IMG/VR virus record: IMGVR_UViG_3300041411_000129
Location: 1-64,000 of that record
DNA length: 64,000 nucleotides
Direction: 5' to 3' (one strand)
Origin: a virus
The notes below the pieces were generated by a model. It ran no database searches. It was not told where the DNA came from and saw nothing but the letters and a program-made list of their open reading frames with translations. Positions within the stretch are counted from its first letter, which is position 1. Every line of letters starts with the position of its first letter. Shown in pieces: positions 1-31,250 of the stretch. A program made the translations under genes and the position numbers.

Positions 1-490
1 TCTTACCTACCATGACTTTAGATCCTGCGGTGAAGAAGTAGCTGCTGGACTTAACCGTCAGCTCCACCTTTGTCGCCTCAGAGTCGATTGGACCGTCCTC
101 AACATCGTTCTGAGTGAGAACCCAACCTGACCCCGCGTTGATAGCCGCAAGGGCCCCGTAGATCGTTGTAGCTGCACCGAGGTCGATGTTGGAGAGACTA
201 ACGCTCTTACCAGCAATCGAAGCCCGGTTATACCGAACTACCATTTGTCCTTGATAACCCTGACCAACAACCGAATTCAGAGTTACCTGAGTGTTAAAAC
301 GGATATCGTCCGCCGGCGTAGCCACAGGTGGTCCAATAGTCACTTGGCGAGCCAGCAGGGTGCTACTGTTTTCAAGGTTGATCTGCGCCAGAAGTCCAGC
401 ACCATCGGCAGCCAAGGGTGTCGGCGTGTTGATGGTGGTGTACATCACAAACGTATCAATAGATCGGATAGCTTGTTGGGGATTTGCCAT
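1..490 (-). CDS. YxR-domain virion-type protein, 3' part outside window
   Basis: The reading frame opens with MANPQQAIRSID and runs off the left edge of the window after about 163 codons, so the C-terminus is missing. It carries the same domain as the genes to its right: an 'NTQVTL' strand, then 'GQGYQG', then the signature 'VVRYNRASI' near residue 90, followed by a helix and 'LTQNDVEDGPI', which matches the 'LTxxDIxD' step of the paralogues. It is the last seen gene of the minus-strand block and starts two bases beyond the stop of its upstream neighbour, which fits co-transcription. Function is unknown. By context it is a virion component. The start codon is clear, but gene length and any second domain cannot be judged. 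Confidence 0.8.
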   Translation of the reverse strand, partial: MANPQQAIRSIDTFVMYTTINTPTPLAADGAGLLAQINLENSSTLLARQVTIGPPVATPADDIRFNTQVTLNSVVGQGYQGQMVVRYNRASIAGKSVSLSNIDLGAATTIYGALAAINAGSGWVLTQNDVEDGPIDSEATKVELTVKSSSYFFTAGSKVMVGK

Positions 491-492
491 GA

Positions 493-1602
493 CTACACCT
501 TAGGCTTGACTTTGACTGTCAATCCAGCCAAAAGAGGTTGAGTCCAGGCTTGCCCGGACGGGTTCTTGTCCGAGCCGAATACCTTATCTACGAATATCTG
601 GGTGCCACCATAAGTGACATTGACATCTGGTGTTTCAACACCACCTGCCGTTAGCGACACACCCACTTTACCGTACGGAGTCACTGTCCACTGAACGCCG
701 CGAGTCTTGACGTTTACAGCTTTGATATTGGCATTCAGTGGGATAGCCGAAGCATCGTAAGTGATGGCTGCTTGAGACATTGGTTCGTCGGTGAGGACGT
801 AGTTCGTACCAATTGCAAGTGACGGGTTACTGTATCCTTTCTTCAACGCATCCAATACCGTACCTGTCGCTGGGTTGACGGTTGTCCACGCAGGCGCCAC
901 TACGTTAGCGATCGGAAGTTTATCGATAACCACAGGACCCAGAGGTTGAGGTTTCTCGCCAGCTTCCCATTCGACGTAGTACATGTCCCGCCATGACCAG
1001 TAGCATGGTGTACCTTGCGGCACATTGGAAGTAAGCAGCGAACCGAGCGCCAGCCATAGTTCCTGAGTACCTGGAGTGGCTGAAACGGCTGTCGTCATGA
1101 AGCTAGGCATCGGTAGCGGCGCTAGGGCTTTCGAATCGACCCAACGGTTAACGACGCCGTTCACGAAATCTAACTGATGCTCTAGGTAGTACTGTTTATT
1201 GAGAGCGTACCCAGGTAGATCAGTTTTAGAGAACACCGTTAGAGCATTGGTGCCGCCGGCGTCGTAGGTATTCATGTAGCTTAGGACTTGAGTGTCTGGA
1301 GATACCGACGCTACAGAATATCGAATCCCGTGGAAGAGATTCGATGTAGGACCTATACTCGGGATAGCTGTCTTGACATTCCCGTGAATACGGTTACGGT
1401 TGTTACCGTAATTGGTGTTGATGATGGTCGTATAAACCATCAGCCAACCAAGCGCAGTAGTTTGCGCGGTGATGAACTGAGAACCACTGCTGGCCATGAT
1501 CTCAAACATCGTGTTTGGGATTGGTCCGCGCCCAATGCTAGCACCGCTACCACCGATAGACGTTGTCGGGACATCCCAACCAGACATTGCATGAATCTTC
1601 AT
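493..1602 (-). CDS. Lectin-like virion protein (ConA-like fold suspected)
   Basis: A 369-residue protein preceded by a good AGGAG ribosome site. The N-terminal ~220 residues read like a jelly-roll/concanavalin-A type module: alternating beta segments, 'YYLEHQLDFVNGVVNRWVDSK' (quoted in part: key residues E, D, V, W), and 'YWSWRDMYYVEWEAGE', the equivalent of the '..RDxYxxDD..' segment of the next two lectin-like genes. After 'PLGPVVIDKLPI' a C-terminal beta domain follows (about residues 230-369). The same two-part plan occurs in the proteins at 2310 and 3296, so these are three diverged paralogues. Such proteins in phages are often tail or capsid decorations that touch glycans, but that role is inference. 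No catalytic motif was recognised. Confidence 0.8.
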   Translation of the reverse strand: MKIHAMSGWDVPTTSIGGSGASIGRGPIPNTMFEIMASSGSQFITAQTTALGWLMVYTTIINTNYGNNRNRIHGNVKTAIPSIGPTSNLFHGIRYSVASVSPDTQVLSYMNTYDAGGTNALTVFSKTDLPGYALNKQYYLEHQLDFVNGVVNRWVDSKALAPLPMPSFMTTAVSATPGTQELWLALGSLLTSNVPQGTPCYWSWRDMYYVEWEAGEKPQPLGPVVIDKLPIANVVAPAWTTVNPATGTVLDALKKGYSNPSLAIGTNYVLTDEPMSQAAITYDASAIPLNANIKAVNVKTRGVQWTVTPYGKVGVSLTAGGVETPDVNVTYGGTQIFVDKVFGSDKNPSGQAWTQPLLAGLTVKVKPKV

Positions 1603-1614
1603 GATTGGGCTCCT

Positions 1615-2298
1615 TTACGGGAAGAGTAACATATCGGACTTGAATACGCTGGACAGCGTAGTTGTGAAGCCTACGTTGACAGTCGATCCAGGCGCGAAGA
1701 TATAGCTGGTAGCCGCTGCGGTAATGGTAACCTCAGTGGCACCCGACGGAATCGCATCGTTAACAATGTCAGCTGTGGTCAATACCATGCCAGTGGCAGT
1801 GTTAATAGCCGAGATCAACGCATGGGTATTAGCCGCTGCGCCGATTACGATCCCAGCGATGTTACCGGCGCTGGAAAGCTTACTCATCGGAGCTCGGTTG
1901 TAGTACCAGTACATGCTACCTGACAACAGAGACGATGGTTGAGCCGAGAGTAATGCCTTACTGTCATACCCAGCTAAATCAGTGGCAACTTCCACAGGAC
2001 CTAGCGTGAACTGAGATGCTGGTCGTACCGACTTTGACTTCTGAAGAATCAGAGTCATTAAGGACGACGCGCCATTTGCCCCGGTTGGCAGTTTAGCGAA
2101 CGGCACCATTGCGTATCCATTCAGAGTACGCAGCGCAACGGTGTTAGCCGGCTGCCCAATCGCATAACCGTTAAACGTCCGCAACGATATTGGGGCTGGA
2201 GGCTTTATCAGCCCATAAGCCTGGATGTTGGAGACTTTCGCCCCCATCGCATCCCTCGTCAGGGCGTAACCCTGAATAGTGGAAATGTTAACAGACAT
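1615..2298 (-). CDS. YxR-domain protein with four N-terminal short repeats
   Basis: A 227-residue protein with two parts. Residues about 1-68 are four degenerate 16-residue repeats with core 'xLRTxNGYAx' (variants 'ISTIQGYALT', 'VSNIQAYGLI', 'LRTFNGYAIG', 'LRTLNGYAMV'), each probably a beta hairpin. The rest is one YxR domain: 'YWYYNRAPMSKL' supplies the Y-N-R signature and 'LTTADIVNDAI' the second conserved step. No C-terminal HYN domain follows. The gene lies between two lectin-like genes in the same operon and has close spacing on both sides. The repeat head is unique in the window and might mediate oligomerisation or attachment. That is inference. Confidence 0.8.
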   Translation of the reverse strand: MSVNISTIQGYALTRDAMGAKVSNIQAYGLIKPPAPISLRTFNGYAIGQPANTVALRTLNGYAMVPFAKLPTGANGASSLMTLILQKSKSVRPASQFTLGPVEVATDLAGYDSKALLSAQPSSLLSGSMYWYYNRAPMSKLSSAGNIAGIVIGAAANTHALISAINTATGMVLTTADIVNDAIPSGATEVTITAAATSYIFAPGSTVNVGFTTTLSSVFKSDMLLFP

Positions 2299-2309
2299 GG
2301 ACTACTCCA

Positions 2310-3278
2310 TTACGCATCAGGCGTTACGATGAAATCCGTGGCGTCAATACTGGCGCTGTCCCACGATCCACCGGCTGGGTTCTTGTGGAATACACCACCG
2401 CTGCCGTTATAACTGTACGAGCCGGATGGGCCTGAGAACGTCTTACCCACAACTTCGTCGGCGCCATTCTTGATCTTACTCGTACAAGTGACTGGGCCGG
2501 CGCCGTTAGAGCTCACGCCAACCACTACCTCGAGGGCAGTTACGACCGTTCCTGCTGGGAGTGTGACCTTCAGGCTAGCGGCGAGAGGACCTTTGGTAGT
2601 AGTGTTCGATGTAGCAATCTTGTCTGTAGGTATTGAGCCAGCTTCATAGACCGCATCTACCAATGCAGTACCACCAGGTGTGGTGGTCCAATCGGCACCA
2701 GTTGCAGCGTCAATGCTGATTGGTACTACCTGCTGAGGACCCTGTGGTCCTACGGGAAGTCCTTGGGCGGCGCCTTGGTCATCACAGATGTAGAAGTCGC
2801 GATAATCGTACCGACCATTCAAACTACCCTTGGCCTCAAGACCAAGCGTCATGCTACGCCCAGTGCCGGCAGCGGTGTTGGCGATCTTGACGCCGTTGAT
2901 CCAACGCTCAACTACACCCGTGGTAACGTCGTACGAGAACTCAAGATACACGGTGTTGCCGCTGACTGGAATCAACGTATCTAAGAGAACGTAGTTCCCG
3001 CCAATATAGACGAGACCTGCACCGCCTCTGGCATTGAGAATGATTCGGCAGCGATAGCCGAACCAGATCTTATTCACAGGAGCTACCAGATACGGGTCCA
3101 ATGGAATCGAAACGCGTTCACTACCACTGGCAGTGGCGTTACTTACGATCCAACCATTGACCAAAGTATTCTGTGCCGACAAGTCAGCGCCGCGCGTCAT
3201 CCCGTGAGTGGCGTAGTTAATCCACGACGTAACGCCCTGCGGCAAATGCTCGAAGCCGATAACTGCTCTAATTGCCAT
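2310..3278 (-). CDS. Lectin-like virion protein (ConA-like fold suspected)
   Basis: A 322-residue paralogue of the proteins at 493 and 3296. The N-terminal part contains 'VYLEFSYDVTTGVVERWING', typical of laminin-G/ConA-like beta sandwiches in which a strand, a turn and a W-x-N-G strand follow each other, and then 'GRYDYRDFYICDDQG'. A short Gly/Pro/Gln linker (near residue 178, 'LPVGPQGPQQVVPI') leads to a second beta domain that ends 'SASIDATDFIVTPDA'. Sequence identity among the three paralogues is highest around the R-D-x-Y-x-x-D-D segment and the linker. It probably acts on the particle surface, with glycan binding possible. No active-site residues can be named. Confidence 0.8.
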   Translation of the reverse strand: MAIRAVIGFEHLPQGVTSWINYATHGMTRGADLSAQNTLVNGWIVSNATASGSERVSIPLDPYLVAPVNKIWFGYRCRIILNARGGAGLVYIGGNYVLLDTLIPVSGNTVYLEFSYDVTTGVVERWINGVKIANTAAGTGRSMTLGLEAKGSLNGRYDYRDFYICDDQGAAQGLPVGPQGPQQVVPISIDAATGADWTTTPGGTALVDAVYEAGSIPTDKIATSNTTTKGPLAASLKVTLPAGTVVTALEVVVGVSSNGAGPVTCTSKIKNGADEVVGKTFSGPSGSYSYNGSGGVFHKNPAGGSWDSASIDATDFIVTPDA

Positions 3279-3295
3279 GATTATAAAACCTCTTA

Positions 3296-4342
3296 TCAGA
3301 CGACCGTATCAGGCGTCAGTTTGACCGCAGTGGCGTCGAGCTTAGCCAGAGACCAATCGGCACCATCTGGTGCTTTGGTATACAGCCCAACAGGAGATAC
3401 CGACGCAGCGCCAGTTGGTGAGCTGACGAACTTAGCTGCGAGAGTTGTCCCGCCTTGCGTTAGTTCGACCTTACTTGTAGATGCTGCATCACCAAGGCTA
3501 GCTCCGGAGATATCCAGCTTTACAGCTGCGATACGAAATCCAGCAGGGATATCGTGTTTAAGACTCGTATCGAGTGGGGTCTTATCGGCGGCTGATGTGA
3601 CTGCGTTTGCGGATGGGTAAGGTGCGTTCAGCGTATCCACGATCGTACCGCCACCGGCAGCGACCCAACCAGCACCAGAGGCAGCATCGACTTGAACTGG
3701 ATAGATCCGCTGCGATCCAATTGGTCCAGTCATCCCATCCCCGGCAACATCGTCTAAGACGTATATATCGCGGATAGCGTAACGTCCACCAGCGGACGTA
3801 CCCAGTCGGAAGGTTAGGCATCCATTACCAGCCACAAATGCAGCCTTACTACCAGCTGCCATAACCGGACCAGTGTAGTTGGCAATCGCTACACCGTTAA
3901 TCAATGTCGATGTAACCCCGCTTACAAAGTCATACGTATGTTCTACGTAATACTCAGTACCGACACCAGTCAACCAAGGAGCTCCGCCAGTACCCGCCAA
4001 GAACAAATAACACGCCACGTCATTAGGTGTGGTATCTGCTGTAAGATGACAGATAGAGTGTGCGCCGGTATACGCTGCCAGAGTCTTGATACGGTAACCG
4101 ATTGTCAGCTTGTTAGGGTTGTTTGGAACAAATCCTTTCAAGGAGATTGGTACAATCTGATCGAACCCGTTAGACATCCCCGAGATCCAACCATCTTGGT
4201 CAATAGCGCAGCGGGCAATGTTAGTGCCTTGAGCAGCGCCTGGAAGACCAGACAACGTCCACCAGTCAGGAAACGCCACCGTGGCAACGGTAGGGTTGGT
4301 GGTCTTTAAGGCAAGATCTGTGCCAAAGAATGCACGAAGCAT
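3296..4342 (-). CDS. Lectin-like virion protein (ConA-like fold suspected)
   Basis: A 348-residue protein, the third of the lectin-like paralogues. The diagnostic segments are 'YYVEHTYDFVSGVTSTLING' in the first half, 'GGRYAIRDIYVLDDVAG' around residue 185, the linker 'MTGPIGSQRIYPVQVDAASG', and a C-terminal beta domain ending 'KLDATAVKLTPDTVV'. The C-terminus closely parallels that of the neighbour at 2310 ('DATDFIVTPDA'), so these two are the nearest pair. It begins four bases after the end of the next upstream gene, which fits one operon. A role as a tail or head decoration protein is inferred from fold and context only. Confidence 0.8.
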   Translation of the reverse strand: MLRAFFGTDLALKTTNPTVATVAFPDWWTLSGLPGAAQGTNIARCAIDQDGWISGMSNGFDQIVPISLKGFVPNNPNKLTIGYRIKTLAAYTGAHSICHLTADTTPNDVACYLFLAGTGGAPWLTGVGTEYYVEHTYDFVSGVTSTLINGVAIANYTGPVMAAGSKAAFVAGNGCLTFRLGTSAGGRYAIRDIYVLDDVAGDGMTGPIGSQRIYPVQVDAASGAGWVAAGGGTIVDTLNAPYPSANAVTSAADKTPLDTSLKHDIPAGFRIAAVKLDISGASLGDAASTSKVELTQGGTTLAAKFVSSPTGAASVSPVGLYTKAPDGADWSLAKLDATAVKLTPDTVV

Positions 4343-4346
4343 GATG

Positions 4347-4718
4347 TTACTCCTCGCTGTCTGTGGTTTCAGCAGGCACTTCTACAACCGGATCATTCCA
4401 GCAGAGGTAGAAGCGGCCACAAGGCGCTACAGAGCGCGCTGGGAAGCTGATGCAGAGCGCGTACTTGAATATGCTGAAGGTGGGCAGGCTGTGTTTGTTG
4501 AGACCGTTAAACAAGACCTCAGCGCCTAACAGGGAGAACTCATTCGAGTCAGGCTGAGTGTTCCACAGACTACGTTCGGCCTCAGGGCCGTATGTCGACA
4601 GAGCTGTGGTGACGAGCCGTGCATTGATGATGTCCATCTCACCAAGCTGAATCTTTGCCAGCTGGTCACCTATTCCGGTGAAGTCTGTCCGAATCAGGTA
4701 ATTTGGCCAATCATTCAT
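4347..4718 (-). CDS. Stand-alone C-terminal half of the two-domain YxR family
   Basis: This 123-residue protein matches only the second half of the two-domain paralogues. It has the 'D..G.DFTGIGDQLAKIQ' opening, the 'WNTQPDSNEFSLLGAEVLFNGLN' core (compare 'WVNTP...NLSGATVLSNGLN' in the protein at 6197) and the end 'FYLCWNDPVVEV', equivalent to 'MYLHYNDPFD'. The gene immediately upstream (4740) has only the first half, so together they equal one full-length paralogue of about 290 residues. The start is supported by a GGGGGAA ribosome site 8-10 bases upstream. It is therefore translated separately and is not simply a frameshifted remnant. It carries a short acidic tail, EVPAETTDSEE, absent from most relatives. 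Confidence 0.8.
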   Translation of the reverse strand: MNDWPNYLIRTDFTGIGDQLAKIQLGEMDIINARLVTTALSTYGPEAERSLWNTQPDSNEFSLLGAEVLFNGLNKHSLPTFSIFKYALCISFPARSVAPCGRFYLCWNDPVVEVPAETTDSEE

Positions 4719-4739
4719 TTCTGAATTCCCCCAATGTAA

Positions 4740-5234
4740 TTAAAATGCCAGCAGAGTGTTGCCGTTGAATGCCGTGGCGATGTCAGGATAACCACCGAAC
4801 TTCAACGTAGCTGACCCTGTCCAACCGAGGTGTCCTTCAACAGCTTCGATCTGAACGTTTATTTTACCGTTTACGGTAAAGCTCGGATGATCCACAAGTT
4901 CCGCTACAGTGAATGGTACACGCAGATAAGCTAGGACTATCGGAATCCAAGTTGCCACTGAAGCAGCATCTGGACAGACACAGTTGGCGAGGTTAAAGTT
5001 TTCAAGCGGCTGCAATGGGAGGCGATCGTAGAAAATGGTTGTAAACCCAATCGTCTTGGTAGATGCTGGTGCTGAGTTCACTTGAATGGCTGTGTTCTTA
5101 CCATATTGGGTGATCTCATCAGCGGTTGCGGCGCGTGGCGTACCGAAGATAAGATCGGCTGCAACGAACGACAGACCGGAAGCCACGCTGACCATTGCGA
5201 CAAGGTCAGCCGTACTAGATACGAAAATAGTCAT
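4740..5234 (-). CDS. Stand-alone N-terminal half of the two-domain YxR family
   Basis: A 164-residue protein consisting of one YxR domain: 'ADLIFGTPRAAT', then 'NTAIQV', then the signature 'TIFYDRLPLQPL' (Y69-D-R71), then 'WIPIVLAYLRVPFTVAELVDHP' and 'GHLGWTGSATLKF'. It stops right after this last strand, where two-domain relatives continue through 'VTxLPGLNYP' into the second half. That second half is encoded by the next gene (4347). The simplest reading is a gene fission in which both products remain made and may reassociate. Function is unknown and a virion role is inferred from the operon. Confidence 0.8.
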   Translation of the reverse strand: MTIFVSSTADLVAMVSVASGLSFVAADLIFGTPRAATADEITQYGKNTAIQVNSAPASTKTIGFTTIFYDRLPLQPLENFNLANCVCPDAASVATWIPIVLAYLRVPFTVAELVDHPSFTVNGKINVQIEAVEGHLGWTGSATLKFGGYPDIATAFNGNTLLAF

Positions 5235-5245
5235 GGCGGACCCTG

Positions 5246-6142
5246 TTAAGTATATTGAAGAAGGCAGCGGCCAGTGAACCAGCTATCTGGGTTGGACTGG
5301 ATAACTACGACTGAGGTGTACTTAGTCGAGTCAACCTCAGGCACTGCGGCGTTTGGAAGCGTATATCGGAACCACTGGATGTTTTGAGTACCACCCGGTG
5401 TGTTGGCGTTCCCAATGTTCCATCCGGTTTGACCGCTATTCGCATTCAGCCAATCACAGATCGTTTGAATACCGGCGTTTGCACCACCAGTTGGATTGTA
5501 GGTCGTAGGGATGGCACTCAGCGTAGTTTTGATGGCTGTTGCATCCTGACTGAGGGTCATGAACTCACCGGTCGGTTTACGACCGACTGAGAAATCATTA
5601 CCGCCAGGATATAGCCGTCCGATCAGACCACGGTTAGCGTCAGTGATAACGTCCGTAATTGGACGCTTACCCAAAGTCCAGAGAATACTGAAGGTGCCTT
5701 TGTAACACAGGCAGGCAGCAATAGGTCCACGAGTAGCCGCTGAACCAGATGCGATGTTTTGGCTAGAGGCAACATCATCGACGGTGAGACTGATGCCGTA
5801 TCTTGCAGCGACCCAAGGAACCCACTGAGCCGGGAATGCGCTAGTGGTCGTGTAATAATTGTCCAGCTTCAGCGTGATGTTTCTGAACAATGCGGTCAGA
5901 TCGATACGACGATATTTAACCGTAACCTGACCAATACCGCCAGAAGCAGCCGTTGGTTTGACTACGATACTGGTATCGTTCTTGAACGGATCAGCGCCAT
6001 CGACAGCGATGGCTGTCGGTGTGCCGAAGGTGACAGAACCCAACGGAAAAACATCTTTGAATCCGGGGTTACTCTTCTCAATCAGATCGTAGATCATCTC
6101 CGATTGAGGTTTACGGTAATCTGTAGGAACCGCAGTAGCCAT
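5246..6142 (-). CDS. Two-domain YxR-family virion protein
   Basis: The start is placed at MATAVPTDYRKP, because GGGAG lies 8-9 bases upstream; a longer in-frame extension lacks such a site. The product has 298 residues. Domain A shows 'SVTFGTPTAIAVDG', 'TSIVVKPTA' and 'VKYRRIDLTALFRNITL' (Y77-R-R79), then 'YGISLTVDDVASSQ'. Domain B shows 'LYPGGNDFSVG' and a W-N-x-G region, and ends 'GRCLLQYT', a degenerate form of the family HYN ending. It is closest to the protein at 7087, which shares 'YRRxDxxxLFRxITLxxDxY' and 'FPGGNDFxxxxxPT'. The two form an alternating pattern with 6197 and 8061 and suggest duplication of a gene pair. Confidence 0.85.
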   Translation of the reverse strand: MATAVPTDYRKPQSEMIYDLIEKSNPGFKDVFPLGSVTFGTPTAIAVDGADPFKNDTSIVVKPTAASGGIGQVTVKYRRIDLTALFRNITLKLDNYYTTTSAFPAQWVPWVAARYGISLTVDDVASSQNIASGSAATRGPIAACLCYKGTFSILWTLGKRPITDVITDANRGLIGRLYPGGNDFSVGRKPTGEFMTLSQDATAIKTTLSAIPTTYNPTGGANAGIQTICDWLNANSGQTGWNIGNANTPGGTQNIQWFRYTLPNAAVPEVDSTKYTSVVVIQSNPDSWFTGRCLLQYT

Positions 6143-6196
6143 GATTAATCTCCCAATGGAAGTAGCAGACGGATTTCGCCATCCGTCTGCATCCAC

Positions 6197-7075
6197 TTAT
6201 GCCGCGTTCGGATCGAACGGATCGTTATAGTGGAGATACATGACACCGGCTGGCGTGAGTACAGTATCCGCCAGTTTCAACTCCATTACGTACTTGTACG
6301 CTGGGTTGGTTGGCAGAGATGCGGAGTTCAGACCGTTACTGAGAACAGTAGCGCCAGACAGGTTCCACGTAGTTGCACCCGGAGTGTTAACCCAGAGAGC
6401 CTTACCGGCGGAGACGTCGATTGCCTTGAACGCAGTGACGAGCTGATCGGCTTGAGTGCTGTCAATAACACCTGGAGCCATCGCCTGCACTTGAGTAAAG
6501 TACGAGGTGAAGTCATAGCCGTACATGTACAGTTGAGCGAAAGTATCGGTATCCAGCGTAGTCGGATAGTTGAGACCAGGCAGCGCTGTAACCTGAATCA
6601 ACTCATCGATTGGAGCGGAACCTTTAGTAACAACGATACTCAGATTGCCGATCCAGCCGACACTACCCGGTTTAGCCGAAAGTACGGCCGTCATGGTGTT
6701 ATCGCCGTTATCAACCAACGGAGCATCATTCAAGTCATCGGTCGTGAACTGAATACCAGTCCAATACTGAATCATCGGGAACAACGTATACACCGTGTCA
6801 GCTGTATACGCCGAAACCTTGAAGCCTGGAATGTTGGCGTCAATCAGATCATTCAATTTCAAACGATCGTAGGTCAGGACCTTAGTGCCCTGATAAGCAC
6901 CACCATCTTTGGCTGTTACACGCAGCGCGGTGTTGTGAGCGGTGACCTGACCTTGCCAAGTACCCTCTACAACTTGCGGCACGCCGAAGACGACGTCTGC
7001 CGCTGTGAACGCCGTCGAGTTGGCAGCATTGAGCGCTGCCAAGAAATCGTCGACAGACTTTGTCATGTAAGACAT
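6197..7075 (-). CDS. Two-domain YxR-family virion protein
   Basis: The start is set at MSYMTKSVDDFL, where GAGG lies nine bases upstream; the longer frame begins with an unrelated-looking W/R-rich stretch. The 292-residue product has domain A ('ADVVFGVPQVV', 'TKVLTYDRLKLNDLI' with Y69-D-R71, 'IQFTTDDLNDAPL', 'GSVGWIGNLSI'), the linker 'VTALPGLNYPTTL', and domain B ('YMYGYDFTSYF', 'LSGATVLSNGLNS', 'MYLHYNDPFDPNAA'). It is the clearest full-length representative, used here to define both halves. Neighbours on both sides are paralogues, with gaps of 10-55 bases. Confidence 0.85.
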   Translation of the reverse strand: MSYMTKSVDDFLAALNAANSTAFTAADVVFGVPQVVEGTWQGQVTAHNTALRVTAKDGGAYQGTKVLTYDRLKLNDLIDANIPGFKVSAYTADTVYTLFPMIQYWTGIQFTTDDLNDAPLVDNGDNTMTAVLSAKPGSVGWIGNLSIVVTKGSAPIDELIQVTALPGLNYPTTLDTDTFAQLYMYGYDFTSYFTQVQAMAPGVIDSTQADQLVTAFKAIDVSAGKALWVNTPGATTWNLSGATVLSNGLNSASLPTNPAYKYVMELKLADTVLTPAGVMYLHYNDPFDPNAA

Positions 7076-7086
7076 TGGTTCTATCC

Positions 7087-8055
7087 TCAGACGTTGTAGT
7101 GGATGTAGTGGTGACCAGCGCCACAACCCAGTGCAGTATCTTCAACAGGGACGGTGAGGATCAGTACACGGTTGTAGTACTTAGAGTTAGCCAAAGGCGC
7201 AGAATCTCGACCAGCTTGAGTACTCAGGTCAACTACGCGACCAGCCCAGGTCTGGTAGACATACGCTGGAGCACCTCTACCAGCATACGCCAGGCCTTTC
7301 CCGTACAGTCGATTCAGTTCATCGATGAACCGATTACAGAAGGCGACGAGTTCGTTACTTGCACCTTCCCAACTGCCAGGGTAGTTGTTCCACTTAGTCC
7401 CGGCCAAGATGAACGCAGACCAATCGATGGCGTAAGCCATACCGCTGACAATTGTCGGATGTCCTGGAGTCACGAAGTCGTTACCACCTGGGAACATACG
7501 GGCATTGAGATCAGTCACAGTGATCATCGTACTGAGATCCTGCGGAGCACCTTTCCACTTCAGTGCGAACTGGCCGGTGTAAGCAAGGCTCGTCGACTTG
7601 GTCTGTACGGTAACGGTTCTGGTGTAGAATCCATCTTCGATCGTAGTGCCGCGAGTGATGTTCTGATCGACCACATCGTCTGTAGTCAGGTTGATGCCGT
7701 ACTTCGCATTGATGATCGGAAGCAGGGCATACACACTGAACACGATGGCGTTCTGTCCTGCGGTAGAACCTTGGTTTACCGAATACCGATCAATCTGTAG
7801 CGTGATACTGCGGAACAGGACACCCATATCGCGGCGGCGATAGTTGACTTCTTTACGACCGATGAAGTCTTGACCGGCGATTGCACTCAAGGTGATCTTG
7901 GTGTTCATCGCCGAGTTGCCTGGAACCGTGGCTGGAGCAGGGACGCCGAGCAAGACGTTGGTCTTAGTCACCGGAATCCAGTTTTCCACGCCTTGGTTTG
8001 CCAAGTTGATGAGGTCATAAACCTCATCGATAGGCGGTTTACTGAAAATAGGCAT
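7087..8055 (-). CDS. Two-domain YxR-family virion protein
   Basis: A 322-residue protein with an AAGAGG ribosome site. Domain A includes 'TNVLLGVPAPAT', 'NTKITLSAIAGQDFIGRKEV', the signature 'NYRRRDMGVLFRSITLQIDRY' (Y72-R-R74) and 'YGINLTTDDVVDQNI'. Domain B begins 'VTDLNARMFPGGNDFVTPG' and ends 'GHHYIHYNV', a complete HYN ending. It is the longest of the two-domain members because of an insertion before the C-terminus ('KGLAYAGRGAPAYVYQTW'). It is paralogous to 5246 in detail. Probable structural protein of the particle; no enzymatic motif seen. Confidence 0.85.
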   Translation of the reverse strand: MPIFSKPPIDEVYDLINLANQGVENWIPVTKTNVLLGVPAPATVPGNSAMNTKITLSAIAGQDFIGRKEVNYRRRDMGVLFRSITLQIDRYSVNQGSTAGQNAIVFSVYALLPIINAKYGINLTTDDVVDQNITRGTTIEDGFYTRTVTVQTKSTSLAYTGQFALKWKGAPQDLSTMITVTDLNARMFPGGNDFVTPGHPTIVSGMAYAIDWSAFILAGTKWNNYPGSWEGASNELVAFCNRFIDELNRLYGKGLAYAGRGAPAYVYQTWAGRVVDLSTQAGRDSAPLANSKYYNRVLILTVPVEDTALGCGAGHHYIHYNV

Positions 8056-8060
8056 CTTGA

Positions 8061-8861
8061 TTAAGCCTCTTCGAGGATGTTGTAATGAAGATACATCGGC
8101 CCGATCATCTGGTCACTGTAGAAGCCTGCCTGAACAACCACTCGGTCAAACCTAGGGTTGCTGTCAGGGACCGCCGAGGTTGGATAGTCGGTAATGTAAC
8201 CTTCATTCCAGCCTGGGATGCCGAGATATGAGCAGGCGTTTTGAAGCGCCGCCCAATCCGTGTAACGCTGACCTGGGCTAGTCGGTTTGATTGCATCACG
8301 AAGACTGGTGAAGTCAACATCCCACGTAACCATCCGAGCAGACATCTTCGAGTTCACCACATCCGGATGATTACGGACTGGCAGAATCTTGATACCAACG
8401 ATGCTATCTAAGAAGGCTTTGGAGTGAGTGAGGTTGATTACAGCCGAACCGATGAAGCCACGGCTGTCAGGCTTAGCCGTCAGCACGAGTTCTTCAGACT
8501 CTCCGTTAGCCACCGTGGGAGGCGTGAACGGTTCGAAGTCATCAACGGTAAGGAAAAGACCGAACGCGCCGTTAATCAGCTTTACAACGCTTGCAGGAGT
8601 GAATTCCTCAAGACTGCGTACATCGGCAGCCTGAATAATGTCACCCAGCACCAAACGTTTGTAATAGATGTCGACTTCATTGTAGTAACCACGCCCCGGA
8701 ACCGACTTTACAGTCAGCTTGGTGTTAGCGGTTTCTGTAGCAACGACTTCGATATCTTGCAGACTAACGTTCATCTCAGTGAACGTCTTTGGCGGCACGT
8801 TGAGGACGTTGAGTTCCTCAATGATCTTACTGGTAGCAGAAGGAACAGTCTCAACAGCCAT
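8061..8861 (-). CDS. Two-domain YxR-family virion protein
   Basis: The product has 266 residues and starts MAVETVPSATSK behind an AAGAGGTG site. Domain A: 'NTKLTVKSVPGRGYYNEVDI', signature 'YYKRLVLGDIIQAAD' (Y67-K-R69), 'LFLTVDDFEPFTPP', 'DSRGFIGSAVINL'. Domain B: 'IKILPVRNHPDVV', 'VTWDVDFTSLRDA', 'WNEGYITDYPTSA' and the end 'MYLHYNILEEA'. Only five bases separate it from the next gene, so translation is probably coupled. It resembles 8873 and 9719 in length and in the W-x-x-x-F-T/S-x-L/Y segment of domain B. Confidence 0.85.
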   Translation of the reverse strand: MAVETVPSATSKIIEELNVLNVPPKTFTEMNVSLQDIEVVATETANTKLTVKSVPGRGYYNEVDIYYKRLVLGDIIQAADVRSLEEFTPASVVKLINGAFGLFLTVDDFEPFTPPTVANGESEELVLTAKPDSRGFIGSAVINLTHSKAFLDSIVGIKILPVRNHPDVVNSKMSARMVTWDVDFTSLRDAIKPTSPGQRYTDWAALQNACSYLGIPGWNEGYITDYPTSAVPDSNPRFDRVVVQAGFYSDQMIGPMYLHYNILEEA

Positions 8862-8872
8862 GACTACACCTC

Positions 8873-9706
8873 TTAATCCACAATCGGATCGTTAAAGTGG
8901 AGAACCAATTGACCAGACCACCCCAACGACATGGTGTCATCGAGATCAACGATGATCACATGGTCGTAGTCCTGATTGGAGACAGGCTCGCCAGACGTCG
9001 GGCCAGCGTAACTAATCGTTGCCCCATCCAGAGAGAAGCGGGAAGCTCCGACCAGTTGCCACGCATCGCCAGAGGCTGCCACAAGGGCATCTTTGATGAT
9101 ACCGAGATCAGCTGTACCAACAACGACGTTAATCAGAGTGGCGTAATACGGACTCATGTCACGCCAGTAGGAGTAACCCACCGAAGCGTACGGCTTGGTA
9201 ATCTGAGGTGATGGGTAGTTCAAGCCCGGCAGTTGCGTAACGGCAATCACGTCTTCTAGAGGCTGTGCCCCAAGTGTGACGTGGAAAGTAACTTCACCGA
9301 TCCAGCCGATACTGTCAGGTTCAGCAACGAGGATCACATCGCCAGCGCCGTCCACTAAAGTCAACGCATTGGAGACGATGTCATTCGCTTCAAAGCCGAT
9401 GCCGTGGCGCTTGTTCAGCAGAGTCACGAAGTCGTCAGTTGTCTGAATGTCATACGCCTTGATGTTCGGACTGATCAGGATCGGCAGATCCGCCAGATCA
9501 AGACGCTTATAGCGGATGGTCGTACTACCGTCGTACGGGCTCAGTGGATTGAGCGCAGTGACCAGCAGCGAAGTATTGGTGCCTGATGCATCCGGCGCTA
9601 CTGGAGTAGGCGTACCGAACGTATACTCGCCCTCAACCAGCTCGACGTTGTTTAACGTCTTGATTGCGCCGAGAATCTCATCAAGCGGTCTTTTATACAA
9701 AGCCAT
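8873..9706 (-). CDS. Two-domain YxR-family virion protein
   Basis: A 277-residue protein that starts MALYKRPLDEIL after an AAGAGG site. Domain A: 'GEYTFGTPTPVAPDA', 'NTSLLVTALNPLSPYDGS', 'IRYKRLDLADLPILISP' (Y66-K-R68), 'GIGFEANDIVSNAL', 'DSIGWIGEVTFHV'. The linker 'VTQLPGLNYPSPQ' is nearly the same as in 6197. Domain B contains 'SYWRDMSPYYATL', a W-Q-L-V-G-A-S segment and the end 'LVLHFNDPIVD'. The match to 6197 across linker and C-terminus makes these two one subgroup. Confidence 0.85.
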   Translation of the reverse strand: MALYKRPLDEILGAIKTLNNVELVEGEYTFGTPTPVAPDASGTNTSLLVTALNPLSPYDGSTTIRYKRLDLADLPILISPNIKAYDIQTTDDFVTLLNKRHGIGFEANDIVSNALTLVDGAGDVILVAEPDSIGWIGEVTFHVTLGAQPLEDVIAVTQLPGLNYPSPQITKPYASVGYSYWRDMSPYYATLINVVVGTADLGIIKDALVAASGDAWQLVGASRFSLDGATISYAGPTSGEPVSNQDYDHVIIVDLDDTMSLGWSGQLVLHFNDPIVD

Positions 9707-9718
9707 ATCGAAACCTCT

Positions 9719-10516
9719 TTATGACCGGTTGAAGTGAATATACGCGTCGCCCTTGTAGCCGTTGATGTCGATACCAGTCTGGATGCAGACGTTGGTGAAA
9801 TCTTTGTTGGCTTCGGGTACGTCTTTTGTCGAATACGATTTCACTGTCTGCGTCATGAACACAGGGATGTCTGGGAAGCCCATCTCGATGAACATCTTCT
9901 GGACAGCCGGCCAGTTGGTCCAACCGTACCAAGCAACACCAAGGATGTTGGAGTAGTACGAGAAGTCCAGACCCCACGTCGCCATGTCGAGGGAAGGTTT
10001 ACCCAAGTCAAGCGGATTATGGTGAGTCAGAACATCCAGCTCTTTGTTAGCAATCGCTACAGACAGCTGAGGACGAATACGAATGAACTGGATAACGAAT
10101 GAACCTTCGTAACCCAACGAGTTAGGGCTAGCCTTGATTACCAAGTTAGCTTGCTCGTTACCACCCAACCAATCGATCGGCTCGTTGACGATGTCGATAG
10201 GGAGGAAGTTGGTGCCGAGGCGTTTGTTCAGGATTGGCAGCAGACGATGAATGTTCGTCTGACCCAAGTCGTTAATAATCGGACGCACACCACCGAAGAT
10301 CTGATCCAGGTTAATACGGCGATAACCAAACCGCGCGTAACCTTCGTAGTCCTTGTTGTCGTACATCGTAACGGTCGGGAGTTCGATGGAACCATCTGCC
10401 AACGACTTCACGTTGCCATAGTAAAGACCACCTACTTCCAACGGTACACTCAAAGCGTTCTGTTGGTTGATGAGACCGATCAGCGCTTCTTCCGACGATC
10501 CCGGTAAAAGTAACAT
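9719..10516 (-). CDS. Two-domain YxR-family virion protein
   Basis: The 265-residue product opens MLLLPGSSEEALIGLINQQN behind a CAGGAG site. Domain A is diverged, with 'GGLYYGNVKSL' in place of the usual TFGTP, 'YEGYARFGYRRINLDQIFGG' (Y65-R-R67), 'LGTNFLPIDIVNEPI' and 'NSLGYEGSFVIQF'. Domain B: 'LDMATWGLDFSYYSNIL', 'YGWTNWPAVQKMF', and the end 'DAYIHFNRS'. A strong hairpin lies between it and the single-domain gene upstream (10624), so it may begin its own transcript or be expressed at a lower level by read-through. Confidence 0.85.
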   Translation of the reverse strand: MLLLPGSSEEALIGLINQQNALSVPLEVGGLYYGNVKSLADGSIELPTVTMYDNKDYEGYARFGYRRINLDQIFGGVRPIINDLGQTNIHRLLPILNKRLGTNFLPIDIVNEPIDWLGGNEQANLVIKASPNSLGYEGSFVIQFIRIRPQLSVAIANKELDVLTHHNPLDLGKPSLDMATWGLDFSYYSNILGVAWYGWTNWPAVQKMFIEMGFPDIPVFMTQTVKSYSTKDVPEANKDFTNVCIQTGIDINGYKGDAYIHFNRS

Positions 10517-10558
10517 AAGGCATCTCCTGGAGTCGAAGCTGACTTAAACGGTAAATAA

Positions 10559-10588
10559 GAGAGGACGAGGCCGAAACCCCGCCCTCTC
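10559..10588 (-). terminator. Putative minus-strand terminator or attenuator hairpin
   Basis: On the minus strand GAGAGGGCGGGG pairs with CCTCGTCCTCTC over 12 positions (two G-U pairs) around a six-base loop, followed by TTATTTACC. It lies in the 107-base gap between two genes of the same strand, so it could end or weaken transcription after 10624. The T-run is short, hence the moderate confidence. Confidence 0.5.
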
Positions 10589-10623
10589 AGATTTATTTGT
10601 ATTAAGACAGTGGTGAAGACCTA

Positions 10624-11145
10624 TTAAACCGGAACGTAGGTCAGACCGTTCAGATCAGTCACGGTCAGGTATTCAGCCAGGTCGATCTCGTCGGAACGGA
10701 GATGGAAGGTCAAGCTGCCGATATACGCCAGCGAGTCAGCCTTCGCCACGACTTGTACGTCGTGAGTTTCGTTCGGGATACCGCCAGTGAAGGTCGGCAG
10801 GTCGCCATCAACGAAGTCTTCCACGCCGAGGTTGATGCTCAGCAGTGCGTTCAGCTGAGGGATGATGTCGGCGATCTTGGTCGACTCACCCAGGCTGAAG
10901 GTTGCGTCCTTGCCGCTTGGCACGAGGATCGCGGTGTTCAGGTGCAGACGGTTGTACTTGAAGGTCTGGGAACCGGTGAAGCCCGAGCCAGCTTTGGCGG
11001 TCAGGGTCACGGAGGTGTTCAGCAGACCAGTGCTGTTTACGGTTGGCAGACCGATGTCGACAACGCCGTAGGTAATACCTTTGTTGTTGTCGGAGTTGAT
11101 AAGGTCAAGGACTACGACCTTGCTTGCTTTAGTCATATCGCTCAT
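10624..11145 (-). CDS. Single-domain YxR-family virion protein
   Basis: A 173-residue protein made of domain A only: 'GVVDIGLPTV', 'NTSVTLTAKAGSGFTGSQT', 'FKYNRLHLNTAI' (Y64-N65-R66), 'LSINLGVEDFVDGDLP', 'DSLAYIGSLTFHL'. It ends with 'LTVTDLNGLTYVPV', exactly the linker that leads into domain B in the longer paralogues. Its codons are enriched in C- and G-ending forms compared with its neighbours, which suggests high expression. A hairpin follows its stop codon. It is probably a major virion component of this cluster; that is an inference from codon use. Confidence 0.85.
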   Translation of the reverse strand: MSDMTKASKVVVLDLINSDNNKGITYGVVDIGLPTVNSTGLLNTSVTLTAKAGSGFTGSQTFKYNRLHLNTAILVPSGKDATFSLGESTKIADIIPQLNALLSINLGVEDFVDGDLPTFTGGIPNETHDVQVVAKADSLAYIGSLTFHLRSDEIDLAEYLTVTDLNGLTYVPV

Positions 11146-11216: not shown

Positions 11217-11744
11217 TCAAACGACAGGCTCGTAGGTCAAGCCAGAGAGATCAGTAACAGGCAGATAAGCGCTCAGAGGAATCAGCTCTGGCTTCACCTC
11301 AAGGATCAATGTGTCGAGATAAACCATCGAGTCAAAGGTAACCTTGAGTTCGACGTTAGCCGACAGCACGGAACTTAGATCCGGCAGGGGTTTGTCGATG
11401 ATCTTGTTTGCCGAAAGATTGATGTTCAACCTTTCATTGATAGCAGGCAAGAGATCGGACAGATTCACTTCATCCGTGATCGTGAACGCTAGTGACGTCG
11501 TATCTGGATCGACGAAGTCTACTAACCTTACTCGATTGTAATAGAAGCTTTGACTACCCTCGTAGCCTCTTCCCGCGATGGCTGTACCAACCATCAGGGT
11601 ATTACGGTTTACCCCAGCTACAGGGGTAAAAACGCTCGGAGTGCCAAACGTCACTTGGCTAGACGTCAAGGTCCGGTTCTGGTTATCTTGACGAATGAGA
11701 TCGATAACGACGTCTATCTCACTCCGTGTGTAGTCAATGGCCAT
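11217..11744 (-). CDS. Single-domain YxR-family virion protein
   Basis: A 175-residue protein with domain A only: 'SQVTFGTPSVFTPVAG', 'GRGYEGSQSFYYNRVRLVDFV' (Y69-N-R71), 'LNINLSANKIIDKPLP', 'DSMVYLDTLILEV'. It ends 'LPVTDLSGLTYEPVV', the same linker end as 10624, so it stops at the domain boundary. It is the closest relative of 10624 in architecture and the two are adjacent, which points to tandem duplication. No other domain or motif is visible. Confidence 0.85.
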   Translation of the reverse strand: MAIDYTRSEIDVVIDLIRQDNQNRTLTSSQVTFGTPSVFTPVAGVNRNTLMVGTAIAGRGYEGSQSFYYNRVRLVDFVDPDTTSLAFTITDEVNLSDLLPAINERLNINLSANKIIDKPLPDLSSVLSANVELKVTFDSMVYLDTLILEVKPELIPLSAYLPVTDLSGLTYEPVV

Positions 11745-11787: not shown

Positions 11788-12327
11788 TCAGTTAATCAAC
11801 TGATCGTAAACTCCACCATCGGTCATTGGCTCGCCCCCAGGCGCTACAAGGCCGTTCAATACGTTGTTCGGGAATTGTGACGCTAGGGTGAGGACTCCGT
11901 TGCTTGCGTTGAGTACAAGCGTTCCTAGCCACACGAATGACCTATTTGTAACGGTGATGGTAACAACACCATTCACGTTGGTGTAATCTTTGATATCGTT
12001 CAGACTTAAAACAAAGTTGTATTTAAGTCTAAGGGCAGTCACCACGCTAGCTGGCGTGATCTCCCCCAGTACTTCGACACTGACAACTGGCTCGCCAATA
12101 TCGATGAATGCTTGCTGCATGTCCAAGCGGTTGTAGTAGTAGACGTAACTACCGGTGATCTGCTTACCACGAGCCGTGGCGCCTACCTTGGTGTTCTTTC
12201 CATCGAACTCGCCAGGCACCAATCCGGTGAAAGACAAATTCGACGTACTCAGCGTTACGCCGTATCCTTCTAGGATGGCCTGATTCGCTACCTGAATCAT
12301 CTCGGCCAGCATTTCCTCACCGGTCAT
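11788..12327 (-). CDS. Single-domain YxR-family virion protein, first gene of the minus block
   Basis: The product has 179 residues: 'SNLSFTGLVPGEFDG', 'NTKVGATARGKQITGS', signature 'YVYYYNRLDMQQAFI' (Y65-N-R67), 'YNFVLSLNDIKDYT', 'RSFVWLGTLVLNA'. The end 'FPNNVLNGLVAPGGEPM' corresponds to the linker but continues about a dozen residues further. It closely resembles the end of 29763 ('FSNNILDGLWPP'), a member in a distant cluster. As the first gene of the block it must lie just behind a minus-strand promoter in the 137-base divergent spacer. Confidence 0.85.
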   Translation of the reverse strand: MTGEEMLAEMIQVANQAILEGYGVTLSTSNLSFTGLVPGEFDGKNTKVGATARGKQITGSYVYYYNRLDMQQAFIDIGEPVVSVEVLGEITPASVVTALRLKYNFVLSLNDIKDYTNVNGVVTITVTNRSFVWLGTLVLNASNGVLTLASQFPNNVLNGLVAPGGEPMTDGGVYDQLIN

Positions 12328-18452: not shown

Positions 18453-18544
18453 TAGGATCGCTGTCTCTAGTCGACTAGTGACAGGTCGGCGTCGATCCTA
18501 AAATAGAAGCTTCTATCCTTCGGCAACACCAAATTGCAATTTGG
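18453..18544 (+). promoter_or_regulatory. Structured 5' leader of the capsid-like gene
   Basis: Three nested or successive stems can be read directly. TAGGATCG (18453) pairs with CGATCCTA (18493) and encloses CTGTC/GACAG with an inner CTAG-TCGA-CTAG. ATAGAAGCTTCTAT (18503-18516) is a perfect 14-base palindrome. CCAAATTGCAATTTGG (18529-18544) is a perfect 16-base palindrome whose last two bases are the first two of the Shine-Dalgarno GGAG. Folding of the last stem would partly hide the ribosome site. It could stabilise the message or gate translation. Confidence 0.6.
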
Positions 18545-18552
18545 AGCAATTC

Positions 18553-23736: not shown

Positions 23737-23760
23737 TTTAACTCAAGAATAGGAAGATGT

Positions 23761-25860: not shown

Positions 25861-25884
25861 GCCTGAAAACAACAGGGGATGACG

Positions 25885-26523: not shown

Positions 26524-26531
26524 GGTGCTGC

Positions 26532-26681: not shown

Positions 26682-26695
26682 TGGCATAAGCCGAC

Positions 26696-26743
26696 ATAAA
26701 GACCGTGGGTAAACCCACGGTCTTTATGCTCTTTCTTTTTTTT
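26696..26743 (+). terminator. Plus-strand terminator with 8-base spacer and T8
   Basis: ATAAAGACCGTGGG-TAAA-CCCACGGTCTTTAT is a perfect 14-bp stem, then GCTCTTTC, eight T's and G. It separates the plus-strand block from the convergent minus-strand block. Confidence 0.85.
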
Positions 26744-26768
26744 GTGTAACCACCCTAGCAGTGAGTTA

Positions 26769-27209: not shown

Positions 27210-27249
27210 GACGGCCTAAGGCCATCATTAATCTACATTAACTCCCTGT

Positions 27250-27843: not shown

Positions 27844-27878
27844 GACTGGTAGGCGCTACCGAAGTAGCGCCACTCCTT

Positions 27879-28763: not shown

Positions 28764-28772
28764 AGCTGTCCC

Positions 28773-29747
28773 TTAACGTGAGAAGAGTGGTGGTGTGGAT
28801 GCGTGGTTAAACGGCAGGTTTCCGGGAACCTTGCTGTCCGAGTACCGGTACGCAATCTTGAGGACACCAGTGATGTTGTTACACCATTTGCTCAGATCGA
28901 GACAGAACACGTAATTGTACGCTGGATCATTCACGGTGTGCGCAGTGCTCACGAAGCCGTTGTAGATGACTTCTGAGCCGTGGACGTTGAAAGGCAGTTC
29001 CTGATCAGGCACTGACACCCATTCGTCGCCAGTGAGACGACGGAGCAGCTGTGGTAGATTTACGAGGTCTGTCCACACGTAGCCAGTCGGAATCGTGTAC
29101 AGATACGACTCAGTTGCCCGACGATCATCGTGGGGCATGAAGGCGTCCGATAACTTCAGTTCACCATCTTCCAGAATCAAATCAACTGGAGGTAAGTCTT
29201 GGTTGCTGTCGCTATAGAACTGACGGATGTCCAACAGCGAATCGATAGTCGCACCGAGCAGCGTCAGAGACTGACGCGTGATCACTTTGAAGCTACCTGT
29301 GAAGATCAAGTGATCGCCAGAGATAATGATCAGGTAATCTGTGTTCTGAAGAGCTGGCAACAGTCCCTCACCGATAGGTTCCTGAGAAACCAGTTCGATG
29401 GTGATTAACGCAGGCTCCAACAACAGACCGTACTGTTCGTGCAGTGCAGTGATGATCGCAGCATCTGTAAGTTCAGGAACGTGAACCGCACAAGGCTCAC
29501 CGTTCAAGATTTGACCGATGTCTACCCGGCGATACATCAGGCGCTGAACTTCTTCACTCCAACCGTTGGTCGAGGCGAACTTGATATCAACCGACGTCAG
29601 TCCTTCCTCACCTTCATTAACTGGAAGACCGAACAGTAACTGCTCAGGTTTCAGCAACCGGTTGTTTGTAGCGTTGATGTAGTCGACCAACAGCTCCTTA
29701 GAGGGCTTGCTGTATCGAGCTATCCTTGGTTTCTTGAGTGTGTACAT
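28773..29747 (-). CDS. Two-domain YxR-family virion protein
   Basis: The product has 324 residues. Domain A: 'EQLLFGLPVNEGEEGLTSVD', signature 'RLMYRRVDIGQILNGEP' (Y-R-R near residue 72), 'YGLLLEPALITIELV', 'LIFTGSFKVITR'. Domain B: 'LPFNVHGSEVIYNGFVS' parallels the 'LSGATVLSNGLN' segment, then 'AYNYVFCLDLSKWCNNITGV' and the end 'LKIAYRYSDSKVPGNLPF', where the HYN motif has become YRYSD. It extends about 20 residues past the usual end. It belongs to the second YxR cluster, 16 kb from the first, with 29763 and 30291. Confidence 0.8.
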   Translation of the reverse strand: MYTLKKPRIARYSKPSKELLVDYINATNNRLLKPEQLLFGLPVNEGEEGLTSVDIKFASTNGWSEEVQRLMYRRVDIGQILNGEPCAVHVPELTDAAIITALHEQYGLLLEPALITIELVSQEPIGEGLLPALQNTDYLIIISGDHLIFTGSFKVITRQSLTLLGATIDSLLDIRQFYSDSNQDLPPVDLILEDGELKLSDAFMPHDDRRATESYLYTIPTGYVWTDLVNLPQLLRRLTGDEWVSVPDQELPFNVHGSEVIYNGFVSTAHTVNDPAYNYVFCLDLSKWCNNITGVLKIAYRYSDSKVPGNLPFNHASTPPLFSR

Positions 29748-29762
29748 TTATCACCTCAGGCC

Positions 29763-30272
29763 CTATAAAGCAGGTGGCCACAATCCGTCAAGTATATTGT
29801 TCGAGAAAGCGTCGGAGAGGAGGATCGAAGTCCCAGGTTCTCCCAGCGTTACTGTCGTTTCACCAACCCATCTCAACGAATTCGGTTTGGCCTTGAGGAT
29901 GAAGCTGCTACCCGTCACGAGTGCGTTCTCAAAGTCCATGTCCGTAATCACCAAGCCTGAAGCCAACGCGATGTTGTTCATCACGCCCTTTACCGTAATG
30001 GGCGGCGTTAGATCCAGACTCATACCACCGAAGACGTCCGCTACATGCAATCTATTGTAGCGGTACGTCATCTGACCTGTATGCTGTCTATAGATGTTTT
30101 CATCTCTAGACTCATGCGTGGTGATCACCACGTTGGTCACAGCACCTTCAACAATCATCGGAGGACCGATGGATGCGAACTCTGCTCTCAAGTGGAGATT
30201 GAAATGGTTATTGGCCATGATCAGTAACGCCACGGCAGGATCGAACTTCAATAACCGTAGCGTGTCAGTCAT
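29763..30272 (-). CDS. Single-domain YxR-family virion protein
   Basis: The product has 169 residues and carries domain A only, with 'MTYRYNRLHVADVFGGM' (Y-N-R), 'GLVITDMDFENAL' and 'NSLRWVGETTVTL'. The end 'ILLSDAFSNNILDGLWPPAL' is the linker sequence, so the protein stops at the same boundary as 10624 and 11217. The nearest relative by its C-terminus is 11788. It is flanked by two-domain members on both sides. Confidence 0.85.
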   Translation of the reverse strand: MTDTLRLLKFDPAVALLIMANNHFNLHLRAEFASIGPPMIVEGAVTNVVITTHESRDENIYRQHTGQMTYRYNRLHVADVFGGMSLDLTPPITVKGVMNNIALASGLVITDMDFENALVTGSSFILKAKPNSLRWVGETTVTLGEPGTSILLSDAFSNNILDGLWPPAL

Positions 30273-30290
30273 GGGATTATCCGTTAGGTC

Positions 30291-31250
30291 TTAAGGTGTC
30301 CGAGTGTATTCAACCAAGATGGCGCCACAGTAAGCCAACGAGTTGTTAGCAAACGTCACTGGGAAGGAAGCCTTAGCCCCTACCGCAATAGTAGGCATCG
30401 CAGTTGGTTTAATATCAGTCGCTGCAATCACACATCCCATTTGCGCTGAAAGTAACGCAGCGAGTTGTGTCATGTTAGCGTAGCCTGGTCCACCGAACTT
30501 AACAGGGCGTCTGAAGGTCAATGGCCACGATCTGCGACCGTAGTAGACCGTTAGTGCCCCGATGTATGGAACGCCGTTGAACGTCAACAGGAGCGCTGTG
30601 TTGTCACCGGCATCCTGAGGTCCATTCTCAGATACCTGAGAGATGGTAAACATGTTCGATTGGATCGGCTCTGCCAACGAGGCAGCATTCATCAAGTTCA
30701 GGTGGGTAGCAATCTGATTCTTGATGTTAAGGCTAATGAATGCATCGGTGTGAGACAACGTCAGCGTATTAACCAGAATGCGGCCAGCGATCTCAAGACC
30801 CAGACGGGCAATCACGCAATCAATTTCACCTACCCACCGATACGAGTCGGCGGCTGAGATTACTGCGACTGTACCTAACTGATCGTAGCTGTCTTCAACG
30901 AAGTCAGTTTCACCGATTGGAATCCTGTACGGCCAGAAGAGATTACCCATCAAGTCTTTTGGAGTCGATGGTATCTCAGCCGCTACAGATAGATTCACCC
31001 CAGACAAGAAAGCTGGCAGGCTAAGCCGTTGGTATTCGAATGTGAACGTACCCACTCGATCCCACAGACTAACCGGAGCCTTACTCTTGTCGATCGACAC
31101 CTTAACGCTGGTATTGACACCGCCAAGCGATACAGGTGCTTCTATCTTCAGATGTGTGGCTTTGAGGGGAGCTTTTAACTTCTCCCCAATTTGAGCCCTC
31201 AACGCATCGAGTGGATGCATCTTCAAGAGTGTTTCTGGTGCAATGCTCAT
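30291..31250 (-). CDS. YxR-family virion protein with two domain-A-like units
   Basis: The product has 319 residues. The first unit has 'NTSVKVSIDKSKAPVSLWDR' and 'FEYQRLSLPAFLSGVNL' (Y-Q-R), then 'DSYRWVGEIDCVI'. The second unit is not the usual HYN domain. It again contains 'NTALLLTFNGVPYIGALTVY' with 'YYGRRSWPLTFRRPVKFGGP' (Y-x-R-R), then 'MGCVIAATDIKPTAMPTI' and 'NSLAYCGAILVEYTRTP'. This member therefore looks like a tandem A-A arrangement, different from the A-B plan of its relatives. Confidence 0.8.
   Translation of the reverse strand: MSIAPETLLKMHPLDALRAQIGEKLKAPLKATHLKIEAPVSLGGVNTSVKVSIDKSKAPVSLWDRVGTFTFEYQRLSLPAFLSGVNLSVAAEIPSTPKDLMGNLFWPYRIPIGETDFVEDSYDQLGTVAVISAADSYRWVGEIDCVIARLGLEIAGRILVNTLTLSHTDAFISLNIKNQIATHLNLMNAASLAEPIQSNMFTISQVSENGPQDAGDNTALLLTFNGVPYIGALTVYYGRRSWPLTFRRPVKFGGPGYANMTQLAALLSAQMGCVIAATDIKPTAMPTIAVGAKASFPVTFANNSLAYCGAILVEYTRTP

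Follow-up and report, generated by a model that had tools for sequence, protein, structure and literature searches.

Why does a virus give so many of the genes at one locus to copies of a single domain, and what would those copies do on the particle? The question is raised by the window analysed here, the first 64 kb (64,000 nucleotides) of a 253,921-bp virus record (IMGVR_UViG_3300041411_000129), in which a sequence-only reading had counted at least fifteen genes sharing a domain, A, commonly continued by a second, B. When the ends of the record were compared, its terminal 127 bases (253795-253921) were identical to its initial 127, and the gene truncated at window position 2 continues over the join to give a 180-aa protein whose C-terminus is nearly as in its relative. 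The record, listed as linear, thus represents a circular genome and the array runs over the join. The major capsid protein (gene 18541-20739), homologues of the portal and of RNA polymerase and many further genes place this uncultured virus, known here from sequence alone, among the phiKZ-type jumbo phages.

All fifteen genes (2, 1615, 4740, 5246, 6197, 7087, 8061, 8873, 9719, 10624, 11217, 11788, 28773, 29763 and 30291, named by their lower coordinate) were found to match the Pfam family DUF7941 (PF25613). A search of the whole genome gave 20 matches in three places, from 183.2 to 29.8 bits with a best E of 6e-55, all exceeding the curated cut-off of 27 bits, and a separately built family HMM used in a six-frame search recovered the same gene set. 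The genome total is 20 A domains in 18 genes plus one B-only gene; three of the A genes lie outside the window. The features are as follows.

2..490, minus strand: A-only DUF7941 gene, cut by the window edge; 180 aa over the circular junction
493..1602, minus strand: second repeated family (PHROG 2448, weak)
1615..2298, minus strand: four 17-aa repeats, then A
2310..3278, minus strand: second repeated family (PHROG 2448)
3296..4342, minus strand: second repeated family (recognised by its motifs, given below)
4347..4718, minus strand: B half of the split pair, 123 aa; FLC9 gp317 orthologue; PHROG 1037 positions 183-285
4740..5234, minus strand: A half of the conserved split pair; FLC9 gp318 orthologue
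5246..6142, minus strand: A+B, 298-299 aa; FLC9 gp319 orthologue
6197..7075, minus strand: A+B, 292 aa; FLC9 gp320 orthologue (46%); best SPN3US match gp143 (34%)
7087..8055, minus strand: A+B; FLC9 gp321 orthologue
8061..8861, minus strand: A+B; FLC9 gp322 orthologue
8873..9706, minus strand: A+B; orthologue of FLC9 gp323, where a laminin-G lectin domain is added
9719..10516, minus strand: A+B; FLC9 gp324 orthologue; best SPN3US match gp144
10624..11145, minus strand: A-only, 173 aa; FLC9 gp325 orthologue
11217..11744, minus strand: A-only, 175 aa; nearest paralogue 10624
11788..12327, minus strand: A-only, 179 aa; counterpart in the relative L070 94% identical, dN/dS 0.09
28773..29747, minus strand: A+B, second cluster; orthologue of DT01 PA10_00032; phiKZ gp126-gp127 locus
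29763..30272, minus strand: A-only, second cluster; groups with phiKZ gp127 and DT01 PA10_00033
30291..31250, minus strand: A-A, second cluster; collinear with DT01 PA10_00034
31261..33489, minus strand: phiKZ gp128 homologue (32%, E 1e-99)
49367..50638, plus strand: phiKZ gp130 homologue (E 3e-42)
55742..57073, minus strand: phiKZ gp157 homologue (E 4e-70)
L023:13289-13813, outside the window, over the circular junction: A
L023:13856-14842, outside the window, over the circular junction: A-A
L023:14885-15541, outside the window, over the circular junction: repeats and A

The architectures described in the sequence-only reading were largely recovered. The lone A genes 10624, 11217 and 29763, said to stop at the end of A, end at profile position 167-168 of 280, and 11788 ends at 173; the pair said to be split consists of A alone (4740) and B alone (4347, profile positions 182-279); profile positions agree with the A-A architecture claimed for 30291; and the four short repeats reported for 1615 are 17-aa repeats preceding A, from residues 5, 22, 39 and 56. 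Eight genes had been said to run on past A, and seven of these continue into B (5246, 6197, 7087, 8061, 8873, 9719 and 28773); the eighth, which does not, was presumably the A-A gene 30291. The start of gene 6197 is probably the ATG at 7075, the open frame in the close relative L070 being of equal length (292 aa) with an aligned start, and that of 5246 is probably the ATG at 6142, where L070 has an open frame of about 299 aa with an aligned start. A frameshift or assembly error behind the 4740/4347 split is ruled out because the split is kept in L070 and in phage FLC9 (gp318/gp317). By these comparisons, separate A and B halves are conserved genes. Repeats of 17 aa of the type 'LRTLNGYAM' precede A in 1615-2298 and L023:14885-15541, and in FLC9 gp310 (L021:31078-34308) a longer stretch of similar repeats apparently comes before A, which is followed by two laminin-G domains.

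Five paralogues of a second family (motifs GFR, YVE..D, V(D/N)G, RD.Y..D and LGP) alternate with the A genes at 493-1602, 2310-3278, 3296-4342, L023:15553-16626 and L023:16632-17732. FLC9 gp311-313, gp315 and gp316 are relatives of this family, two of them joined to laminin-G. A lectin (Concanavalin A-like) identity for the five interleaved genes was unsupported: hhalign to the FLC9 laminin-G domains gave a probability of only 14%, and no Pfam match, Laminin_G or ConA-like included, was obtained for any of 15 second-family members. The family of phiKZ gp131 (baseplate/fibre) is also split at 40525-49295, where two long bodies (40525 and 45650) occur together with lone N-terminal parts (43489 and 48570) and lone C-terminal pieces (44197 and 44929), a pattern like that of the DUF7941 halves.

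An HMM search over phages found DUF7941 in 16 of 16 phiKZ-type jumbo phages with 2 to 20 matches each (FLC6 2, phiKZ 3, SPN3US 17, LucasX 19, pEa_SNUABM_54 20), and the count in this genome reaches the upper end of that range without exceeding it. The expanded family is not new, as a 20-member family has been published for SPN3US and both Pfam and PHROGs hold it. The SPN3US 'paralog family B' (Thomas 2016, Ali 2017) has 20 virion members, SPN3US_0138-0154, 0083, 0160 and 0237 (given as gp83, gp138-154, gp160/161 and gp237), and has been described as potentially the largest family of paralogues known from a phage. DUF7941 was confirmed in 14 of the 20 (0083, 0138-0145, 0148, 0151, 0154, 0160 and 0237), 11 of the 17 genes 0138-0154 having a match, and pairwise hits from window genes were also obtained. 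The match was absent from 0146, 0147, 0149, 0150, 0152 and 0153 (6 of 20), which look, by sequence, like fibronectin-III (FnIII) proteins. In the literature searched, no paper dealt with the function of DUF7941 or with the PDB 9xq* entries.

Others have shown that DUF7941 homologues are present in purified SPN3US virions (PMC5105663, PMC5694885, PMC10052503), and that SPN3US family members accompany tailless heads in two different mutants, the second being tube-null (PMC5105663, PMC10052503). The exception to head association is gp237, later reassigned to the tail. Copy numbers of gp141 and gp160 were estimated at >300 per capsid each, and gp143, the best SPN3US match of 6197, was of middle abundance.

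The age of the duplications can be judged from gene order. The close relative L070 repeats the array gene for gene with 64-94% identity per gene, and purifying selection was seen in every compared pair (omega 0.06 to 0.39). In the Burkholderia phage FLC9, gp325 to gp317 are nine consecutive reciprocal best matches of 10624, 9719, 8873, 8061, 7087, 6197, 5246, 4740 and 4347, with the order kept. In a tree of A domains, orthologues cluster according to gene position; support is strong for 6197, 8873, 8061 and 9719 and weaker for 10624, 7087 and 5246, and the tree did not resolve 4740 with FLC9 gp318. The collinear best matches and the position-wise groups indicate that a common ancestor already had the array and the split A/B pair. 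A lineage-specific burst of duplication was thus not borne out, most of the array being older than the split from FLC9. Recent tandem amplification is rejected for most of the array as orthologues are nearer than paralogues, and is possible for 10624/11217 and the A genes at 249.3-250.8 kb. The genes of the second cluster are collinear with PA10_00032-00034 of Pseudomonas phage pPa_SNUABM_DT01 (DT01), and their locus is that of phiKZ gp126-gp127, next to gp128. Judged by these comparisons, the duplications in the family are ancient, and each member would have a fixed gene position of long standing.

Structure prediction of 6197, proposed with the sequence-only reading, gave a confident two-part AB model (AlphaFold2 with a 99-row alignment, pLDDT 88; a single-sequence run gave pLDDT 34). 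Among solved structures the model had one significant match, phiKZ gp127 (PDB 9xqd chain 0; Foldseek E 4.7e-05, prob 1.00, TM 0.62 by target length), and gp127 in 9xqd was likewise the sole significant match of the sequence profile in the PDB (E 1.7e-27). By sequence it was reached with the profile only, phmmer of 6197 against the PDB giving no match. A plain Ig-like fold for A was dropped, gp127 being the only significant PDB match. Entry 9xqd is described as 'outer peripheral region in the phage phiKZ baseplate complex' and holds one gp127 chain, of which only ~150 residues are modelled, with six of gp157 and two of gp130. Homologues of both partners are encoded in the window, as is that of gp128, which in phiKZ sits in PDB 9xqs with the wedge protein gp87 and the sheath. 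Notes in the phiKZ record such as 'structural head protein' were excluded as evidence of location because the same labels are put on the tail sheath. The claim of one fold, multiplied, in virion proteins is supported by the confident AB model and by homologues in SPN3US virions and the phiKZ baseplate. Another phiKZ protein, gp143 (L073:15694-16227), looks like the third DUF7941 protein of that phage; its gene adjoins those of the endolysin gp144 and the fibre proteins gp145 and gp146.

In long proteins A comes first. Of 50 distinct A-domain proteins of at least 345 aa, 47 have A at the N-terminus or close to it, and what follows it varies. SPN3US_0155 (L024:29418-31595) is A-A-Gp38, in which DUF7941 modules precede a tail-fibre adhesin of the T-even type; FLC9 gp323, gp308 and gp310 carry laminin-G lectin domains after A; LucasX has a GTA TIM-barrel with Calx-beta repeats and also an alpha/beta-hydrolase; 2050HW and KpLz-2_45 have hydrolase or tail-fibre families; and in an 870-aa Goslar protein (L093:970-3582) A-B is fused to non-contractile tail-sheath domains (NCTSP_N, TIM barrel). 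Goslar, which has this NCTSP fusion, is a contractile-tailed jumbo phage. A 483-aa Goslar protein (L094:635-2086) was judged, by reading its sequence, to have A followed by a PKD-like-looking stretch and a BspA-like surface repeat. The SPN3US_0155 gene ends the SPN3US array and adjoins an endolysin gene. A recognisable adhesin domain was absent from most of the family members in the window. A constant N-terminal domain with a variable C-terminal part is the usual design of virion docking modules, as in phage fibres. As A is kept at the N-terminus while the C-terminal parts vary, it is therefore read as a docking module.

On balance, and with moderate confidence, we favour the reading that the array and cluster genes encode DUF7941 virion proteins in which A docks its carrier on the particle surface, the members being parts of a surface apparatus. 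Domain A would fix the carrier protein in place, and B or another C-terminal domain would point outward or join neighbours and carry putative receptor-binding or enzymatic parts. The A-only, B-only, AB and A-A proteins would each be a single piece of one multi-protein apparatus, and family members would probably act as sockets holding adhesins on the particle. Since SPN3US members are on heads and phiKZ gp127 belongs to the baseplate, the members need not all share a single location, and head and baseplate may both be true, for different members. The products of 28773-31250 most likely lie at the outer baseplate rim, together with the homologues of gp157 and gp130. By analogy with SPN3US, those of the large array (from 12327 back across position 1, 12.3 kb of it in the window) would most likely be head- or neck-anchored appendages or decoration.

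That the array proteins are instead head-internal ejection proteins, which would be packaged along with the DNA and enter the host by injection, is unlikely overall, although for the abundant head members this is a live rival. The head association in both tailless SPN3US mutants and the >300 copies of two members would suit it, and in a table the SPN3US authors place gp141, gp143 and gp160 under 'Head ejection?'. However, the question mark is their own, their list of eight proteins cleaved by the prohead protease does not include family B, phiKZ gp127 sits on the baseplate, and fusions to Gp38, laminin-G, Calx-beta and TIM-barrel domains suit the outside of the particle. We regard as quite unlikely the proposal that all DUF7941 proteins, those of the array too, belong to the baseplate rim only and that the SPN3US head assignment misleads. 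In FLC9 the array comes immediately after homologues of phiKZ gp98, gp99 and gp101, and gp101 is in PDB 9xph with gp164 and gp174 and gp99 in 9xps with sheath and tube, all of which, like gp127 in 9xqd, would fit a baseplate site; yet the tube-null mutant gave the head assignment again, >300 copies per capsid exceeds what a six-fold baseplate rim normally holds, and the gp101 homologue of the present genome is at 169.6 kb, distant from the array. It is improbable that, as the sequence-only reading had proposed, many slightly different copies fill non-equivalent positions as adaptors between differing symmetries, for although the diverged paralogues in fixed gene order and the single gp127 chain beside six gp157 and two gp130 would be consistent with this, copies number 2 to 20 among phages of the same capsid and tail plan, SPN3US abundance runs from low to >300 copies and the C-terminal fusions are diverse.

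Returning to the docking reading, a tentative extension is possible, namely that DUF7941 serves nucleus-forming jumbo phages as a general plug-and-socket system, in which A docks on head and baseplate alike, each gene position stands for one particular socket and diversification proceeds through changes in what follows A. If so, one surface-display system would include both the SPN3US 'head' family and the baseplate-rim protein of phiKZ. Jumbo phages spend many genes on this family, and linking SPN3US family B, the phiKZ baseplate-rim chain and the adhesin, lectin and enzyme fusions yields a testable docking hypothesis for an unexplained expansion. The link also exposes a concrete conflict, head versus baseplate, and positional orthology allows fifteen genes of an uncultured phage to be named.

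Both the family and its expansion in related phages were already known; what is added is the link between SPN3US, phiKZ and the fusions, and the halves as conserved genes. All A genes here match Pfam DUF7941 or PHROG 1037 and 2935, a family that PHROGs places in 'head and packaging', and seven match A+B over the full length. The Pfam profile describes A+B, whereas in this phage A and B also occur separately, and A is doubled or placed after short repeats. The closest major capsid protein (37%) is that of DT01, which has 6 DUF7941 matches against 20 here and whose second cluster is collinear with that of this phage. In phiKZ, gp126, gp127 and gp143 belong to DUF7941, but these are its only three matches and it has no array. 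FLC9 gp317-gp325 have the A/B architecture of 4347-10624, split pair included, although identity is only 28-46% and gp323 is fused to laminin-G. SPN3US paralog family B is homologous to the present family, comparable in number and likewise clustered, but no lone A/B pair like 4740/4347 was seen in its array.
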